Assembly: GCA_023151275.1 (NCBI GenBank)
Contig: JAKLJI010000001.1
Coordinates: 1,813-65,812, forward strand
Origin: Bacteroidia bacterium
GTDB taxonomy: Bacteria; Bacteroidota; Bacteroidia; UKL13-3
Direction of reading: 5' to 3'
Length of the DNA: 64,000 nucleotides
Within the stretch, counting starts at the first letter, position 1, and each line of letters opens with the position of its first letter. The notes under the pieces are model-generated. The model made no database searches. It was given only the letters and a program-made list of their open reading frames with translations, and had not been told where the DNA came from. This document shows, in pieces, positions 11,163 through 50,477 of this stretch. The translations under genes and the position numbers were made by a program.

Positions 11163-11182
11163 TCCAATCAACTGATTGATAG

Positions 11183-11212
11183 AAAAAAGGCCGCAAAATG
11201 TGGCCTTTTTTT
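11183..11212 (+). terminator. Intrinsic terminator of the glmU-like/tpiA unit
   Basis: A stem of A5-GGCC paired with GGCC-T5 encloses a 9-base loop and is followed by further T. It lies 20 bases after the tpiA stop. Confidence 0.88.
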
Positions 11213-11488
11213 ATGCCAAAATCCACAGGTTACCGTTGTATAAAACCCGGAGACAATCGATTAGTTCCCTAAATGCTTGTGAAATTGGTCGTAAACTCAG
11301 TTTCCCTCACTCACCCCAAATAGGCCATCATGCCTTGCTCGTGAAACTGCCAATTTCTTTAGCATTATGAGCCACTTGACGAAGTTTAAATGCATAAACG
11401 GTGTTAAACCAGCTAAAACCAGCAGGATTTATGTGGCAGGTAAAGGCTCCATCGGATTTTTTTTGTAAGATTGAATGTTCATAGCACC
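11213..11488. other. Intergenic stretch with a possible decayed coding fragment on the minus strand
   Basis: No intact gene is seen between the tpiA terminator and the start at 11489. Read on the minus strand from about 11464 down to a TAA at 11211-11213, one frame gives protein-like sequence with only two TGA interruptions (11328-11330 and 11307-11309). Pieces include HINPAGFSWFNTVYAFKLRQ and LSLRPISQAFRELIDCLRVL. This could be the tail of a lost gene, part of an old repeat element, or chance. The plus strand has an unconvincing 64-codon frame (11176-11370) that starts inside the terminator. Confidence 0.25.
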
Positions 11489-14400
11489 ATGAAAAAAAAA
11501 TTAGTTCTTATTCTAACAGCCTGTTTCTGGTTAATTTCATCCGTACATGCACAACGACCAAGTAGTTTTACGGTTAATCCCACTGCTTTTGCGGATGAAT
11601 TTGAGAAATTCCTAAACACCTCTTCCAAAAAAGAAGTGCGTGATTTGGCGGAAGAATTCACCGCAAATTATGCCCAAGGAAAATTCAATCTCGCACAAAA
11701 AAATCAAATTATCCGGTTAAGCAATTTGATGCTGCAATCCAATTGCCAAATTAGTCCTGATTTTGAAAACTATGTGAGCACCTTGAATGCGCTAGCATCA
11801 GGGAATATGCTGGCAAAGTTTGATGGTTGGCACAAATTGCTGGCCTCTTCCTTGCAACAATCGCGAGAGAATTATCAGAAATTTGTCCAGGTATCTAAAA
11901 ATATTTTCTCAGATAAAATACTGGTTCAAATTGGTGGAAATACCTGGTACTCTAACACAACTGATGTGGACTTACTTACTGTACCTGAACCTCATTTCAG
12001 CTTTAAAAAACTTGATTTGGTTTGCCAAACCCCGGGAGACACCTTCGAACTCTATGGAACCTCAGGTAAATTCTATCCGGCAAAAAACAATTGGGTTGGA
12101 AAAGGCGGTCGCGTTGATTGGACTCGAGTTGGCCTAGATTCAACCCGAGTGTATGCAACCCTTTCCAACTATCGGATTGAATTGAATGATGGAAACCTGG
12201 TTGCTGATTCGGCAACCTTCTACAACAAAGACTTACAAGCCAAGCCTATGCTTGGAAGAGTAATCGACAAACCATTGGGAAAATCACAGGGTGATAAATC
12301 CATTTATCCGCAATTTGAAGGGTATTTTAATGAATTTACAGGTGTTACTTATGGAAAAGCTAAATTCAAGGGTGGGTTTGGAATGCGAGGAGCTATGGTA
12401 ATTGGAAAAGGAAACAGCGAGCGCAAAGCTGAACTTTGGTTCACCTTTAAGAACAAGCCATTCCTAAGAATTCAATCCCCTGAATACTTCGTAAGGGAAA
12501 ACAAGATATCGGTTGAGAAAGCGGAAATAACTATTTTTCTTGATAAGGATTCAATTTACCATCCGCAGCTAAGCTTTACCTATCTAATCAACCAAGATAA
12601 AATTTCACTTTACCGGGATAATAAAATGGGCATTTCATCTGCTCCATTTATTGATTATTTCCATAACCTGGAATTCTATGTTGATGAAGTTAAGTGGGAC
12701 CTTAACAGTCCGAAAATGGAATTTGATAATATTTCCGGAGATGCTCCTGCCCTATTTGAATCTATAAACTATTTCAGAGATGTTAACTACGAACGAATTG
12801 GTGGCGTGCTGAGCTACAATCCGCTTCAACGTATCAAACAATACTGTGAAGAAAATAAAACCAATAGCTTTCATATTGAATCCTATGCGGCAAAATTCAA
12901 AAGCAATGTGAGTGAAATCAAGATTCAAATGATTGGTTTAAACGACAAAGGTTTTGTGAATTACGACCCGGGTAAAAACATGGTTTATGTGAAGCGCAAA
13001 TTGATTGATTATGTAAACGCACACAATGGAAAAACCGACTATGATGCTATTTCCTTCCGCTCAACTATTAGCGCAGTACCAAATGCCCACTTAAGCTTAA
13101 TCAACAATGATTTGGTAGTACAAGGTGTACCCAAATTTTATTTCAGCGATTCTCAAAACGTTTATATCCTCCCCAGAGATCAGGTAATTACCATTAAGAA
13201 AAACAGGAATATGGATTTCAGTGGGAAACTCCGGGCGGGTATGGCAGATTTTTATGGTAACAATTTTGGCTTTGATTACAATACTTTCAAAATCCGTCTG
13301 AACAATATCGACTCACTCAAGTTCTTGTATCCGGACGACTCACTGGGTGCCTATATGCACGTAAAAAGTGTTATTCAAAACATTTATGGAACGCTGGAAA
13401 TTGATTATCCCTACAACAAATCCGGACGAAGGCATATCCCGAAATACCCTATCTTTACCTCCGAGGTTGGCTCAAAGGTATTCTATGACTATCCAACTAC
13501 ACAGAGCGGAGTGTACGATAGAAATAAATTTTACTTTGAGGTTGATCCATTTACCATTGACAGTTTAAGTAACCTGAATCTACTTACAATGGCATTGGCC
13601 GGAACTTTTGTTTCGGGAGGAATTCTTCCGGAAATGCGTCAAGAAATTTCAATGCAACCCGACAAATCCTTAGGATTCTATATCCCGATGGATTCAACCA
13701 AAAAATTCACCTTGTATGGAGGAAAAGGACATGCCATACAAGACTTAAGGCTTAGCAATGACGGACTAATTGGCTCAGGAACCTTGAGCTATTTGGCTTC
13801 AAAAACGTACTCAAACCGATTCATTTATCTATTGGATTCCATGAATTCAAATTCTTATTTGTTTGAAAACGACAGAACCTCTTTGTTTCCTACCATTATT
13901 AAATCACCAAACGTATATAACCACTGGATTCCCTACCAGGATACCATGTTTATTACGAACAAAGGTGAGCCGATGAAAATTGCTTATGATGGGGCTAAAC
14001 TATATGGAACCATCATTTTAACACCTAAAGCCATGAATGCCAAAGGCAGAATGGATATTGAGGGAGGGGAACTTATCGCAAATCTTTTTGAGTTAAGACC
14101 GGTGGAAGTATTGTCTGACGATGCAGTATTTAGGCAACGAAACCCGAAAGACACAACACAGGTGGCATTCAGCACCGGTAAGGTAAAAGCTTATGTAAAT
14201 TTGGATCAAAAATTTGCTGATTTTACCTTCAAAAATTATCCCGGAATCAACAACGATTTTATCTTAAACAACTACGCCGGATCCTTTGAAAAACTGCGTT
14301 GGAACATGATTCCGAAAACATTGGAATTCAATGGTCCAACAAATGCAGACAGAGCCGATGCTGCAAGCTATCTCTTATCAAAACGCCCATCACAGGATTC

Positions 14401-15874
14401 ACTCCGCTTTGCAAGTGGAAGTGTTCTGTTAACGCTTGGGGATTATGTAATGCGATGCAGTAAGATTCCGAATATTCTCATTGCTGATTCAAAATTAATT
14501 CCAGATAGTGGCAAAGCTATAATTCGTGAAAATGCAGAAATGGACATGCTAATCAACGCAAAAATTGTGGCTGATACGCTTAGCAAATTCCATAAAATAG
14601 ACAAAGTAACCATTAAGGTAAATGGCCGAACCGACTTCAATGGAGCAGGCACATACTCGTATTTGGATAGAAATAAGAAAGAACAAAAATTCTATCTGGA
14701 TCAAATTTATTGTGTCGAGAAAAAGTTCCTGGAAGGAAAAACGCTGATACCCGATTCAATTAACTTTATGGTTGGACCAAAATTGGGATTCCGTGGAAAT
14801 ACGATTTTGCACTCTTACAATAAAAACCTGGAATACAATGGATTTTTCAAGGCAACTCATCAATTGCCCTTGCCAAAAACAGATTGGGTAAGATCCTCTG
14901 CCATTATCAACCAGGATTCGATTTTTATTCCATTAAATCCGCCATTAACCAATCTAAACAGGCAAACATTGAACAATGGATTTTACATCTCAAACGATTC
15001 ACCACACGTATATTCAGCGCTATTCTCGAGAAAAAGGAATACCAGTGATTTGGAATTGTTGAAATGTGAGGGAGTATTTACGTACAATGAAAAGTTTGAT
15101 GAATTTAGAATTGGTTCGTTGGAAAAAATATATGGCATTGGCAAGCGTGGCAATTTTATGGCCATGAGTGAGCAAAAGAAAATTCTTTATGGGGAAGGAA
15201 AATTCAATTTTGCGCTTGAAACCAAAGGATTTTCGATAAATACTGGCGGCTATGGTTCACTGAATTTGGGAGATACAACCTACAGCATGCGAGTAAGTAT
15301 GGCAATTAATGCTCTTCTTCCTGCACAAGCTCTGAAATTAATGGTTGATTCATTAACCGATCAAACCTCAGGAGACCCCACAAATTACTTTGAGGCCCGG
15401 GTGTTGAAAGCTGCAATTCCCAACATGGTTGAGGAAAAAACCTTTTCAAAACTTGGCGATAATATGGAGGATGAATTGGGAGGAAAATTGCTTGAAGAAC
15501 TTCAAAAAACCTTTTTTATCACCGATATCCAATTGAGTTGGGAGCCCAGCAAGCGCGCCTTTACCAATCATTCGGGAGAAATTGGACTGAAAAGTATTGA
15601 CAAATACCCCATTGAACGACGAATAAAAGGTAAGCTGGAAATTGTGAGAAAACGTGGAGGCGATGAAATTACCCTTTACATTCAACCTGAAAAGGGAAGC
15701 TGGTATTTCTTCCGCTATCAACGGGGCATCATGGCTGTAATTAGCTCCGACCAGTTGTTTAATGAAGCGATAAAAGTTAATATTGATAAAATTTCGAAGG
15801 AGTTTGAGGACTATAAAATTCGACAGGCCAATATCTCCGATAGAAATAAATTTGTTAGAGCACTTAAGAAATGA
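11489..15874 (+). CDS. Very large exported protein of unknown function, coupled to plsY
   Basis: The ATG at 11489 begins a signal peptide (MKKKLVLILTACFWLISSVHA, cut before QRPSSF); an upstream TTG at 11471 adds only six residues. The mature protein of about 1440 residues has no membrane helix that I can see and no CxxC or classical catalytic motif. After an alpha-helical N-terminal part (to about 140), the sequence is dominated by alternating polar/hydrophobic strands rich in Asn, Asp, Tyr and Phe. Recurring blocks resemble LptA/LptD or TamB-type beta-groove proteins (for example LRLSNDGLIGSGTLSYLASK and DSATFYNKDLQAKPMLGRVI). I do not recognise a named family. Its stop overlaps the plsY start (ATGA), so the two are translationally coupled, which hints at an envelope lipid role by inference only. 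Confidence 0.85.
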   Translation: MKKKLVLILTACFWLISSVHAQRPSSFTVNPTAFADEFEKFLNTSSKKEVRDLAEEFTANYAQGKFNLAQKNQIIRLSNLMLQSNCQISPDFENYVSTLNALASGNMLAKFDGWHKLLASSLQQSRENYQKFVQVSKNIFSDKILVQIGGNTWYSNTTDVDLLTVPEPHFSFKKLDLVCQTPGDTFELYGTSGKFYPAKNNWVGKGGRVDWTRVGLDSTRVYATLSNYRIELNDGNLVADSATFYNKDLQAKPMLGRVIDKPLGKSQGDKSIYPQFEGYFNEFTGVTYGKAKFKGGFGMRGAMVIGKGNSERKAELWFTFKNKPFLRIQSPEYFVRENKISVEKAEITIFLDKDSIYHPQLSFTYLINQDKISLYRDNKMGISSAPFIDYFHNLEFYVDEVKWDLNSPKMEFDNISGDAPALFESINYFRDVNYERIGGVLSYNPLQRIKQYCEENKTNSFHIESYAAKFKSNVSEIKIQMIGLNDKGFVNYDPGKNMVYVKRKLIDYVNAHNGKTDYDAISFRSTISAVPNAHLSLINNDLVVQGVPKFYFSDSQNVYILPRDQVITIKKNRNMDFSGKLRAGMADFYGNNFGFDYNTFKIRLNNIDSLKFLYPDDSLGAYMHVKSVIQNIYGTLEIDYPYNKSGRRHIPKYPIFTSEVGSKVFYDYPTTQSGVYDRNKFYFEVDPFTIDSLSNLNLLTMALAGTFVSGGILPEMRQEISMQPDKSLGFYIPMDSTKKFTLYGGKGHAIQDLRLSNDGLIGSGTLSYLASKTYSNRFIYLLDSMNSNSYLFENDRTSLFPTIIKSPNVYNHWIPYQDTMFITNKGEPMKIAYDGAKLYGTIILTPKAMNAKGRMDIEGGELIANLFELRPVEVLSDDAVFRQRNPKDTTQVAFSTGKVKAYVNLDQKFADFTFKNYPGINNDFILNNYAGSFEKLRWNMIPKTLEFNGPTNADRADAASYLLSKRPSQDSLRFASGSVLLTLGDYVMRCSKIPNILIADSKLIPDSGKAIIRENAEMDMLINAKIVADTLSKFHKIDKVTIKVNGRTDFNGAGTYSYLDRNKKEQKFYLDQIYCVEKKFLEGKTLIPDSINFMVGPKLGFRGNTILHSYNKNLEYNGFFKATHQLPLPKTDWVRSSAIINQDSIFIPLNPPLTNLNRQTLNNGFYISNDSPHVYSALFSRKRNTSDLELLKCEGVFTYNEKFDEFRIGSLEKIYGIGKRGNFMAMSEQKKILYGEGKFNFALETKGFSINTGGYGSLNLGDTTYSMRVSMAINALLPAQALKLMVDSLTDQTSGDPTNYFEARVLKAAIPNMVEEKTFSKLGDNMEDELGGKLLEELQKTFFITDIQLSWEPSKRAFTNHSGEIGLKSIDKYPIERRIKGKLEIVRKRGGDEITLYIQPEKGSWYFFRYQRGIMAVISSDQLFNEAIKVNIDKISKEFEDYKIRQANISDRNKFVRALKK

Positions 15875-16539
15875 ACGACCTAATTTTTTTATTGATTGCC
15901 TTACCAACAGCCTACCTACTCGGATCTATCCCTTCAGCAGTTTGGATAGGAAGAAGCTTTTACGGAATTGACGTAAGGGAACATGGAAGTGGAAATGCCG
16001 GTGCAACGAATACTCTTCGTGTTTTAGGCAAAAAAGCAGGCTTTCTTGTTTTATTTATTGATTGCATAAAAGGATTGGCTGCGGCCAGTTTGCCACTGTT
16101 CAACAACAACCTTACACCAGGCTCTGAAATGTTTCATATCCATCAAATGGCATGTGGTATGGCAGCCGTTTTGGGGCATGTTTTCCCGGTATTTGCCGGA
16201 TTTAAAGGAGGAAAAGGTATTGCAACACTTTTGGGCGTAGTAATTGGAATTAGCTGGCCAGTTAGCTTAATGTGTGCGTTGACTTTTGTTGTAATTGTTT
16301 GGGTAACCCGATACATATCCGTTGGCTCCATGTTAGCATGCTCACTCAGCCCTTTGTATGTAAGAATTTACCACGGTTACGAACCCGCATTTATTTACTT
16401 TTGCATTGCAATAGCGATTATGGTTATTTATACCCATAGAAGCAATTTGAAACGACTAAAGGAAGGAAATGAAAATAGATTCTCCTTTAATCAGGGACAA
16501 AAGAAGGAAAAAAATGAACTTGTATCAGAAAACAGTTAA
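15871..16539 (+). CDS. plsY: Glycerol-3-phosphate acyltransferase PlsY
   Basis: PlsY is the integral membrane enzyme that moves an acyl group from acyl-phosphate to glycerol-3-phosphate, the first step of phospholipid synthesis. The 222-residue product shows the family motifs YLLGSIPSAVWIG, REHGSGNAGATNTLRVLG and FKGGKGIATLLG, with five or so membrane helices. The C-terminal 20 residues are highly charged ([14 protein letters not shown]). It overlaps the upstream 1461-residue gene by 4 bases and the clpS start by 26 bases, so these genes form a tight operon. Confidence 0.94.
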   Translation: MNDLIFLLIALPTAYLLGSIPSAVWIGRSFYGIDVREHGSGNAGATNTLRVLGKKAGFLVLFIDCIKGLAAASLPLFNNNLTPGSEMFHIHQMACGMAAVLGHVFPVFAGFKGGKGIATLLGVVIGISWPVSLMCALTFVVIVWVTRYISVGSMLACSLSPLYVRIYHGYEPAFIYFCIAIAIMVIYTHRSNLKRLKEGNENRFSFNQGQKKEKNELVSENS

Positions 16540-16825
16540 TTCATTTGTATCAGAATCCGGGACTCAGCTAGACGAAGAAGTTGAACTTCTGGAGGACGTC
16601 ACCCAAGAAAATAAGGTAGTTCTTTACAACGATGATGTAAATACCTTTGATTGGGTTATTGAATGCTTAATTGAAATATGTGAACACGATGAAATCCAGG
16701 CTGAGCAATGCGCACTTTTGGTTCATTTTAAAGGGAAAGCAGTTGTAAAAACAGGCAGCCTTGAAAACATGCAAGCTATTTGCCAGGCCTTATGCGATCG
16801 TGATTTATCGGCAACGATTGAATAA
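16514..16825 (+). CDS. clpS: ATP-dependent Clp protease adaptor ClpS
   Basis: ClpS delivers N-degron substrates to the Clp protease. The conserved core [20 protein letters not shown] and [15 protein letters not shown] is present, including the NDD and VH-x-x-G elements. I chose the ATG at 16514 because AAGGA (16504-16508) lies 5 bases upstream, giving 103 residues, the usual size. An earlier ATG at 16469 would give 118 residues but overlaps plsY by 71 bases. ClpA or ClpC is not nearby. Confidence 0.92.
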
Positions 16826-48392: not shown

Positions 48393-50477
48393 TTAGATAA
48401 AGCCCTGCCATTTGCGGATAAACCATTCCAAAGCAGCAATAGCAATCAACACAACTAGAATCCAGCTTTGGTTAATTAATTCCTGAACTGAATGTTCTAC
48501 CTGAATAATAGGCTTACTTTTTTCCAAATTTTTCAGGTAGTCAACTAAACGATCCGACTGATTTAGTAAAAATGAAGCGCCACCTGAATTTGCCGAAAGG
48601 GTGCGAAGCATTGCATGATCTGCAAGGGTATTCAACTGCTCCAAGTTTGAAGATTTTACAACAAAACTACCTGATTTCGTATCAGATGAGGCATTTTGGA
48701 AATAAGCTTTCCAGGAATAGACACCCGGAGCAAGCGCACCCGCATCCAATTCATAGGCATCCGAATTTCTGTTAAAAGACAAGGAATAAGGTTTTGATTT
48801 GGCTGATGAAATCTCTAGTAGCAATTCTTTTTGATTATCGGGCTCAAAAGCCTCATTAAACCACCAGGCATCAAACTGTACAGACTCAGACTCATCGTAA
48901 ATACGCTTCCGGGATTTTACACGAAATCGTCCTTTATCCTCTCTACCTGCAAGCAATTGCACAGATTTCATCAGAAGAGCTGAGCTAGCTTGAAAATTTT
49001 GGTTCATTTGGAAATCATAAAGTTTCCAACGCCAAATCCCATCTCCTGCAATAATTCCTCTTCTCAAGTAACCGTTACCTGTAAAGAACCAAAGTGGAAT
49101 TTGTGTTTTTACCTGACCTATTTGCAGGTAAAGAAACACCTCCGTTCCGGAAGCAAACCGGTAATTGCCATAGGGCGCATTCAATGGGGGCAATTTGGAA
49201 TAAAAAGAGGCTTCATTATCATCATGAAAAAGTGAAAATGTTTCATTTTTATGCGGTTTGACCTCATTGGCACCCGGCCGAAATCCCTCAATTGAAAAGC
49301 CCAAATCAAGGTTGTTCAAATAAGGAATTCCCGATTGAGCCCCGAGAATAAACAGTTGAGGGATGTTTCTATCCGAAACTTGTTTTATCAAACCAAGACC
49401 TTCAGCACGAGAACCCGGAATCTGGTGGAAAATATACAAATCAGATTCGGAAGAAGGGTTGAACTGATGTTGGCGTAGGTCTGAAATTTCAAGTTCAAAA
49501 TTTTTATTTGTGCTTAGCAAAGCCTTTAGAGCAGCTATATCCGGATGTGGGTTCAGGTAAACAATTTTAATGCGCTGTTTCGACTTAAGCACCTGAACAG
49601 CAATTGAAGTAGAATTATTAAGAACCGTTTTTTCTCCTGAAACCTTATCCAATCGTACTTCATAGGTATGAAGACCTTCTTTTCCTGCATCCAACTCAAA
49701 AGAGAAGGGCAGGTAATCATTGGATGAACCTGGAATCACATTTTTTGAGGCAATCAGTTTTCCGGCCTCAAATACCCGAATTGTGGTTGATTGACCTTGG
49801 CAATCAAATGCAGAAACGGCACCTTCTAACTTAAAATTATTCCCTTCAAAAACCAGTTCAGAAGACCTTACAAATTGGACTGCCAAATCTTTATAAGGTA
49901 TTGTATCTCCAGCACGAAGGGTATAAACCGGGAAATTCACCAGGTCGGATAAACTCAAAGGGTCTGCTCCCCTGTTTACAATCCCATCCGAAATTAGAAT
50001 CATCCCTGCACTTGGCTGGTCGTTTAGTTCATTGTTTGCTTCCTCAATTACTGTTGAGATTGCAGTTGATTGACCTTTAAAATTCAAGCTATCAGCTCCG
50101 CTTCTCACCTTGGAGTCAAACTGAAAGGAAACCAAATCTACTTGCTCATTCAAAGTTTCCTTTATTTGCTGAATAGCACTCTGAATCTGGACAGCTGTTT
50201 TGGCACTATCAGCACCAGCAATCATACTGGCACTGTTATCAACAAAGACCACCAAGTTGGGCTTTCTTAGCAGCTGCTTAGTTAAGTTAACCAATGGGCC
50301 CAACAACAGGAAAAACAAGAAAAACCAAAGTACGAAACGACCTGCAAGCAATGCAAGTCTGAGTGGTTTGGAAGCAATTTTAAGCGGATTCCCTCTGTAC
50401 AGCCACCACGAAAGTGCTGCAGCGGCAAACAAAGAAGGAAGAATTAACCAATAGGCGTAGGGAAGACTGAAGCTCAT
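48393..50477 (-). CDS. Membrane protein with von Willebrand factor A-like domain
   Basis: The 694-residue protein has two N-terminal membrane helices (about 6-24 and 40-64), then a VWA domain with an intact MIDAS start VVFVDNSASM (76-85) and SAGMILISDG, then a long periplasmic beta-rich region and a final membrane helix (WILVVLIAIAALEWFI). The layout resembles BatA/BatB-like aerotolerance proteins and glutamine-amidotransferase-like membrane proteins of Bacteroidetes, in which the middle region (IVYLNPHPDIAALKALLS) is a Rossmann-like domain. The function is unknown. It begins 4 bases after fabG and is probably in the same operon. Confidence 0.8.
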   Translation of the reverse strand: MSFSLPYAYWLILPSLFAAAALSWWLYRGNPLKIASKPLRLALLAGRFVLWFFLFFLLLGPLVNLTKQLLRKPNLVVFVDNSASMIAGADSAKTAVQIQSAIQQIKETLNEQVDLVSFQFDSKVRSGADSLNFKGQSTAISTVIEEANNELNDQPSAGMILISDGIVNRGADPLSLSDLVNFPVYTLRAGDTIPYKDLAVQFVRSSELVFEGNNFKLEGAVSAFDCQGQSTTIRVFEAGKLIASKNVIPGSSNDYLPFSFELDAGKEGLHTYEVRLDKVSGEKTVLNNSTSIAVQVLKSKQRIKIVYLNPHPDIAALKALLSTNKNFELEISDLRQHQFNPSSESDLYIFHQIPGSRAEGLGLIKQVSDRNIPQLFILGAQSGIPYLNNLDLGFSIEGFRPGANEVKPHKNETFSLFHDDNEASFYSKLPPLNAPYGNYRFASGTEVFLYLQIGQVKTQIPLWFFTGNGYLRRGIIAGDGIWRWKLYDFQMNQNFQASSALLMKSVQLLAGREDKGRFRVKSRKRIYDESESVQFDAWWFNEAFEPDNQKELLLEISSAKSKPYSLSFNRNSDAYELDAGALAPGVYSWKAYFQNASSDTKSGSFVVKSSNLEQLNTLADHAMLRTLSANSGGASFLLNQSDRLVDYLKNLEKSKPIIQVEHSVQELINQSWILVVLIAIAALEWFIRKWQGFI

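Follow-up and report, generated by a model that had tools for sequence, protein, structure and literature searches.

The principle of a lipid carrier or bridge has been proposed for TamB, YhdP and YdbH of Escherichia coli (PMC12977461, PMC11014939), and in Flavobacterium johnsoniae there are seven AsmA-like proteins (PMC12045153). VPS13 and ATG2, the eukaryotic repeating-beta-groove bridges, form a long groove of repeated beta units within a single chain (PMC7613979). Little is known of how Bacteroidota deliver lipids to their outer membrane. Here, we describe a gene whose 1461-residue product, hereafter the giant protein, is, judging from its predicted fold, a strong candidate for a lipid conduit of the envelope that has not been described before. 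The gene lies in a stretch of 64,000 nucleotides (the window) from a Bacteroidia bacterium (assembly GCA_023151275.1, contig JAKLJI010000001.1, positions 1,813 to 65,812), and had been singled out in a sequence-only reading of that DNA made without database searches.

A giant exported protein with a predicted Lpt-type fold

The open frame and the signal peptide that had been read from the sequence were both confirmed. Given that an orthologue was found in 55 of 58 relatives, mostly at full length and with a single protein as query, the frame is not a product of chance. The signal is, as judged by eye, of the typical cleavable type, with the cut between MKKKLVLILTACFWLISSVHA and Q; orthologue N-termini likewise have a hydrophobic segment, followed in most by an AQ cleavage site, and no lipobox cysteine is conserved among them. 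By the same inspection, an N-terminal inner-membrane anchor helix was not found, the cleavable-type signal with its conserved AQ site standing there instead. The features of the gene, all on the plus strand, are as follows.

11489 to 15874: gene for the 1461-residue exported protein; open frame of 1461 codons with known orthologues
11489 to 11551: signal peptide of cleavable type, residues 1-21; from the sequence, with the AQ site kept in most orthologues and no conserved lipobox
11552 to 11911: N-terminal helical domain with six helices, residues 22-141; AlphaFold2 model
11921 to 12346: LptC/LptA-like beta-jellyroll, about residues 145-286; VIA-align to LptC 4b54 and Foldseek
12353 to 12769: second stretch of LptA/LptC-like beta-jellyroll, about residues 289-427; VIA-align to LptA 2r1a
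12776 to 13036: MarR/IclR-like winged helix, residues 430-516 (model 409-495); VIA-align, profile match and helix-turn-helix matches of orthologues
13037 to 13708: additional beta region, residues 517-740, which contains the most conserved block, KKNRNMDFSG..AG; model and LptD 5iv9 alignment
13712 to 14533: beta-jellyroll like the LptD N-terminus, about residues 742-1015; LptDE chains and internal repeat
14888 to 15208: weak profile match to the Bacteroidota LptD N-terminal region, about residues 1134-1240; hhalign
15323 to 15871: C-terminal helices (residues 1279-1340) and beta end domain (1341-1461); second AlphaFold2 model

AlphaFold2 models were obtained for residues 22-850 from 30 orthologues and for residues 640-1461 from 29 orthologues, with model numbers converted to protein numbers by adding 21 and 639, respectively. 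The predicted local distance difference test scores were 85.8 and 87.6, and the predicted template modelling (pTM) scores 0.64 and 0.61. The two models contain ~92 strands in total, bearing out the mainly beta chain that had been proposed, except that ~120 N-terminal residues, residues 430-516 and about 1279-1340, as well as the very C-terminus (in the second model), are helical. Both the N-terminal helical domain and the winged helix at 430-516 had been overlooked.

When the models were compared with the PDB, Lpt proteins ranked first for both models and at several positions, above most unrelated rows. LptC 4b54 aligned by VIA-align with residues 151-280 (Z 10.9, root-mean-square deviation (rmsd) 3.2, 116 residues), LptC in 6mit and 6mjp reached about Z 10 against the first model, and Foldseek matched this first jellyroll to LptC/LptH chains with a probability of 1.00. 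LptA 2r1a aligned by VIA-align with residues 289-427 (Z 10.5, rmsd 3.4, 119 residues). In the second model, LptDE chains aligned at about model positions 193-381 (Z 9-10, rmsd 3.2-3.8), with the chain 9rps covering protein residues 835-1014 (rmsd 3.2, 145 residues), and also ~90 residues earlier, at 742-911 (model 103-272; Z 8-9). That one LptD template can be placed twice, with overlap, suggests a jellyroll that extends beyond a single LptA unit, and the stretch of about residues 742-1015 does exceed such a unit in length. Foldseek alignments across whole models, which had rmsd >25, were left unused. The predicted OstA/LptA-type beta-jellyroll fold is well supported, with good confidence for each module, and the resemblance to beta-groove lipid conduits (LptD, LptA, TamB-like) that had been suspected is supported by these best solved-structure matches: LptC, LptA/LptH and the N-terminal jellyroll of LptD. 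The block LRLSNDGLIGSGTLSYLASK (about residues 752-771), quoted at the time as an example, falls within a part of the chain for which the LptD jellyroll gives an alignment. No TamB/AsmA chain was among the fold matches listed, which does not exclude a beta-taco. A C-terminal outer-membrane barrel was considered and rejected, since porin matches reached only Z 4-5 with rmsd >7.

Profile comparisons gave further hints. Within the family profile, residues 736-798 match 828-890 (hhalign probability 96.8), and residues 529-607 match 975-1073 (93.7). Amongst comparisons with the TamB, LptD_2 and OstA_2 proteins of Bacteroidota, the sole match to stand out was that of about residues 1134-1240 to the LptD N-terminal region (probability 36-49 over 104 columns, with 24 reversed decoys at or below 1.6), which we treat as a lead and not as proof. 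The comparisons with TamB and OstA_2 gave no match; the control comparison of LptD_2 with OstA_2 failed as well, hence this is not counter-evidence. Finally, the alternation of hydrophobicity along the strands was 2.08, as compared with 1.33 +/- 0.13 in shuffled sequences, and none of 2000 shuffles reached it.

A winged helix within the exported chain

Residues 430-516 resemble Csa3 and the MepR-like and YusO/MarR-type winged helices by VIA-align (Z 8-9), and the family profile matches the Transcription Factor E (TFE) winged helix (E 0.0061). The earlier statement that no domain is recognised in the protein is correct for the one encoded in the window but not for all of the family, some orthologues scoring weakly against the Pfam winged-helix models Fe_dep_repress, HTH_Crp_2 and TrmB (best 4.2e-4). 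As LptD 5iv9 aligns across this module (model 268-556, 159 residues, Z 9.0), the winged helix seems to be inserted in a jellyroll. It is already unusual for an exported protein to contain a winged helix; export makes DNA binding unlikely, and the module may serve docking.

Database status and distribution of the family

The window protein matched no family of Pfam, NCBIfam or PHROGs and no sequence of the PDB, and neither Pfam nor NCBIfam gave an adhesin or type IX secretion system (T9SS) C-terminal domain. No score exceeded the cut-off for Pfam LptD_N, OstA_2, LptC or LptD, and none was found for TamB (PF04357) or AsmA, whether with the window protein or with 17 and 30 family members. Overall, searches of family libraries and PDB sequences returned only winged-helix and chance-level matches. 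A protein that would work like a groove protein of the Lpt or AsmA type is, by these searches, a member of neither family. A search of open-licence papers yielded no description of it.

With a 17-row profile, the family was detected in 212 of 247 genomes of the class Bacteroidia (114 of 135 genera), nearly always as one copy in each positive genome. Named loci that carry the gene include Saprospiraceae and Bacteroidales assemblies (L061-L063). We read the family as one found in very many, mostly uncultured, Bacteroidia families and absent from several species-rich ones; it is old and usually single copy. It has probably been overlooked because the well-sampled families with many species lack it, as do all of the family libraries searched. 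One genome (G351; L145 5197-14546) encodes two full-length copies end to end, of 1549 and 1566 residues and 77% identical, which may act as a pair.

Genomic neighbourhood and linkage to plsY

The following neighbouring features, also on the plus strand, were identified.

11182 to 11213: apparent intrinsic terminator after tpiA (AAAAAGGCCGCAAAATGTGGCCTTTTTTTT), from the sequence; between tpiA and the giant gene
15871 to 16539: plsY, glycerol-3-phosphate acyltransferase (PF02660, E 1.4e-56); ATGA overlap with the giant gene

The four-base ATGA overlap reported for the two genes is exact: plsY starts with the ATG at 15871, the giant gene ends with the TGA at 15872-15874, and the Pfam match establishes the identity of PlsY. 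Upstream, the apparent terminator (AAAAAGGCC..GGCCTTTTTTTT) and a long intergenic gap separate tpiA from the giant gene, so that the transcription unit probably starts there; to judge from spacing, it probably continues through plsY, clpS and a coenzyme A-transferase gene. The clpS frame as listed (16469-16825) begins within the 3' end of plsY, with a 70-base overlap, and a later start is likely. In the window there is no prmA between tpiA and the giant gene (11163-11488), the terminator and gap occupying its stead. Elsewhere in the window (48393-50477), a 694-residue reading frame has no Pfam match at 1e-4.

Neighbours were compared at 66 loci, drawn from about 50 families. The upstream gene was prmA in 38 and tpiA in nine; plsY was the downstream gene in 27, without exception on the same strand and at most 155 bases away; lpt genes were not generally adjacent. 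Across the 247 class genomes, 165 encode both the giant protein and PlsY, 47 the former only, 13 PlsY only and 22 neither (an odds ratio of about 6, without correction for kinship). The linkage to plsY is real and old, but given the 47 genomes with the giant protein alone and the 13 with the reverse, it is neither required nor specific. The adjacency that had caught the eye is ancient, but upstream prmA is conserved at least as well; the functional link drawn from it to PlsY is weakly supported, and specific coupling to PlsY as a general rule is rejected by those 47 of 247 genomes. Several genomes without the gene keep the order prmA then clpS or plsY, so it was lost from an old tpiA-prmA-X-plsY order, and at 18 loci in such genomes no replacement protein matching the family hidden Markov model was found.

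Two further arrangements were seen. At L129 and L139 (families of G044 and G057), the giant gene has an LptF/G-family gene and glycosyltransferase-like genes at a distance of no more than about 4 kb. At L150 and L179 (family f79), a protein of 1900-2130 residues, belonging to one family and showing repeat and low-complexity stretches by eye, is encoded directly 3' of it; the f79 genomes checked have no PlsY.

Other lipid systems in the same genomes

The source genome encodes OstA_2 (C5), two LptF/G genes (C7 and C22), TamB (C9, open frame 1464) and LptD_2 (C33), so the giant protein is not its only or main OstA/LptD protein. In the genomes tested, with and without the giant protein, LptD_2 was present in 45 of 46 and a separate TamB in all 46, while LptF/G and OstA_2 were found in every one except a reduced genome of 0.5 Mb. 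Since genomes with and without it share this set, the giant protein adds to the Lpt and Tam systems and does not replace them.

Proposed function and alternatives

We consider it somewhat probable that the giant protein is a single-chain periplasmic beta-groove lipid carrier or bridge. Following export, the signal would be cleaved, and about residues 145-1280 are predicted to fold into a long beta-jellyroll or groove, in one stretch or several, the equivalent of several LptA units in one chain. By the sequence pattern, the alternating hydrophobic residues of the strands line one face. The likely task of the protein is to hold lipid acyl chains and pass them through the periplasm; it would either span the space from inner to outer membrane as a bridge or shuttle across it as a soluble carrier. 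Given that LptD, OstA_2 and LptF/G are encoded in these genomes as well, the cargo would more probably be phospholipid or another membrane lipid than lipopolysaccharide (LPS). Docking of partners may be the role of the helical domain at the N-terminus, of the inserted winged helix and of the helices near the C-terminus. Lipid binding and transport, the cargo, the membrane partners and the continuity of the groove are what we infer.

Several observations weigh against this proposal. The alternating hydrophobicity would suit any beta sandwich, no match to the Pfam models of LptD_N, OstA_2, LptC, TamB or AsmA was listed, and with pTM of only 0.61-0.64 the arrangement of the modules is not established. 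The protein has no membrane anchor, as the earlier statement that it lacks a membrane helix had it. The gene for PrmA, which has no lipid role, is linked as tightly as plsY. Species-rich families without the gene (f25, f26, f27 and f32) argue that it is dispensable over long times, and only 14 of 394 genomes were positive in a phylum-wide sample (11 of 296 searched with a single protein), which had a completeness floor and was drawn differently from the class sample.

The alternatives fare less well. The protein may be a periplasmic scaffold or chaperone for outer-membrane or surface protein assembly, its groove holding peptide strands rather than lipids. Similar-sized TamB-type proteins have been tied to outer-membrane protein assembly (PMC11341756, PMC11014939), and the winged helix and end domains resemble protein-docking modules; nevertheless, the sequence has no TamB, POTRA or Bam features and a separate TamB is present throughout the tested genomes, and we regard this role as unlikely. 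To nearly the same degree, we doubt that it is an accessory of the Lpt pathway, i.e., an extra LptA/LptC-like bridge component carrying LPS or lipid A variants. Its nearest folds are indeed LptC, LptA and the LptD N-terminus, the weak profile match points to the Bacteroidota LptD N-terminal region, and in two sampled families (G044 and G057) an LptF/G-family gene lies <4 kb away, yet Lpt evidently runs without the giant protein (LptF/G and OstA_2 persist, bar the one reduced genome, as does LptD_2), and lpt genes are not its usual neighbours. A beta-rich structural protein of the envelope, spacer or adhesin-like and without transport, would fit the facts that a shared fold proves no function and that overall pTM is moderate, but is least probable, as the matches are specifically to Lpt jellyrolls, at multiple positions and in both models above most unrelated rows, and no adhesin or T9SS domain was detected.

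A wider claim we hold only tentatively: a new envelope system as old as the class, in which a single-chain periplasmic beta-groove bridge would supply the outer membrane of much of Bacteroidia with phospholipids or other lipids, apart from Lpt and with no recognised sequence kinship to TamB/AsmA, and would be docked or gated through an extracytoplasmic winged helix.

Comparison with known systems

A conserved, unannotated giant with predicted Lpt-type grooves, beside complete Lpt and Tam sets, provides a named gene for genetics, and its clean absence from several families a natural comparison. The OstA_2 protein of Bacteroidota (PF13100) is of the OstA/LptA type and from the same phylum; such proteins, however, have about 520-900 residues, are recognised by Pfam and are near-universal in the tested genomes, including those without the giant protein, and no profile match joins the two (the method also missed LptD versus OstA_2). 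As for VPS13 and ATG2, no chorein domain was found and the units differ, and the analogy is one of working principle only. The TamB/AsmA-like beta-taco proteins TamB, YhdP and YdbH are of similar size and share the reading as a long beta-groove and the idea of a periplasmic lipid conduit; they carry an inner-membrane helix, whereas the giant protein has a cleavable signal and no TamB/AsmA domain score, and the source genome has its own TamB (G000:C9) beside it. Closest are LptA, LptC and the LptD N-terminus, which the giant protein resembles in predicted fold (Z 9-11), presumed periplasmic site and alternating hydrophobic strands, with weak profile similarity to the LptD N-terminus of Bacteroidota. 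It differs from them in its helical N-terminal domain and inserted winged helix, in having no LptD barrel, and in coexisting with a complete Lpt set without general linkage to lpt genes; and where the Lpt bridge is assembled from many small subunits, the giant protein is one chain of 1461 residues.

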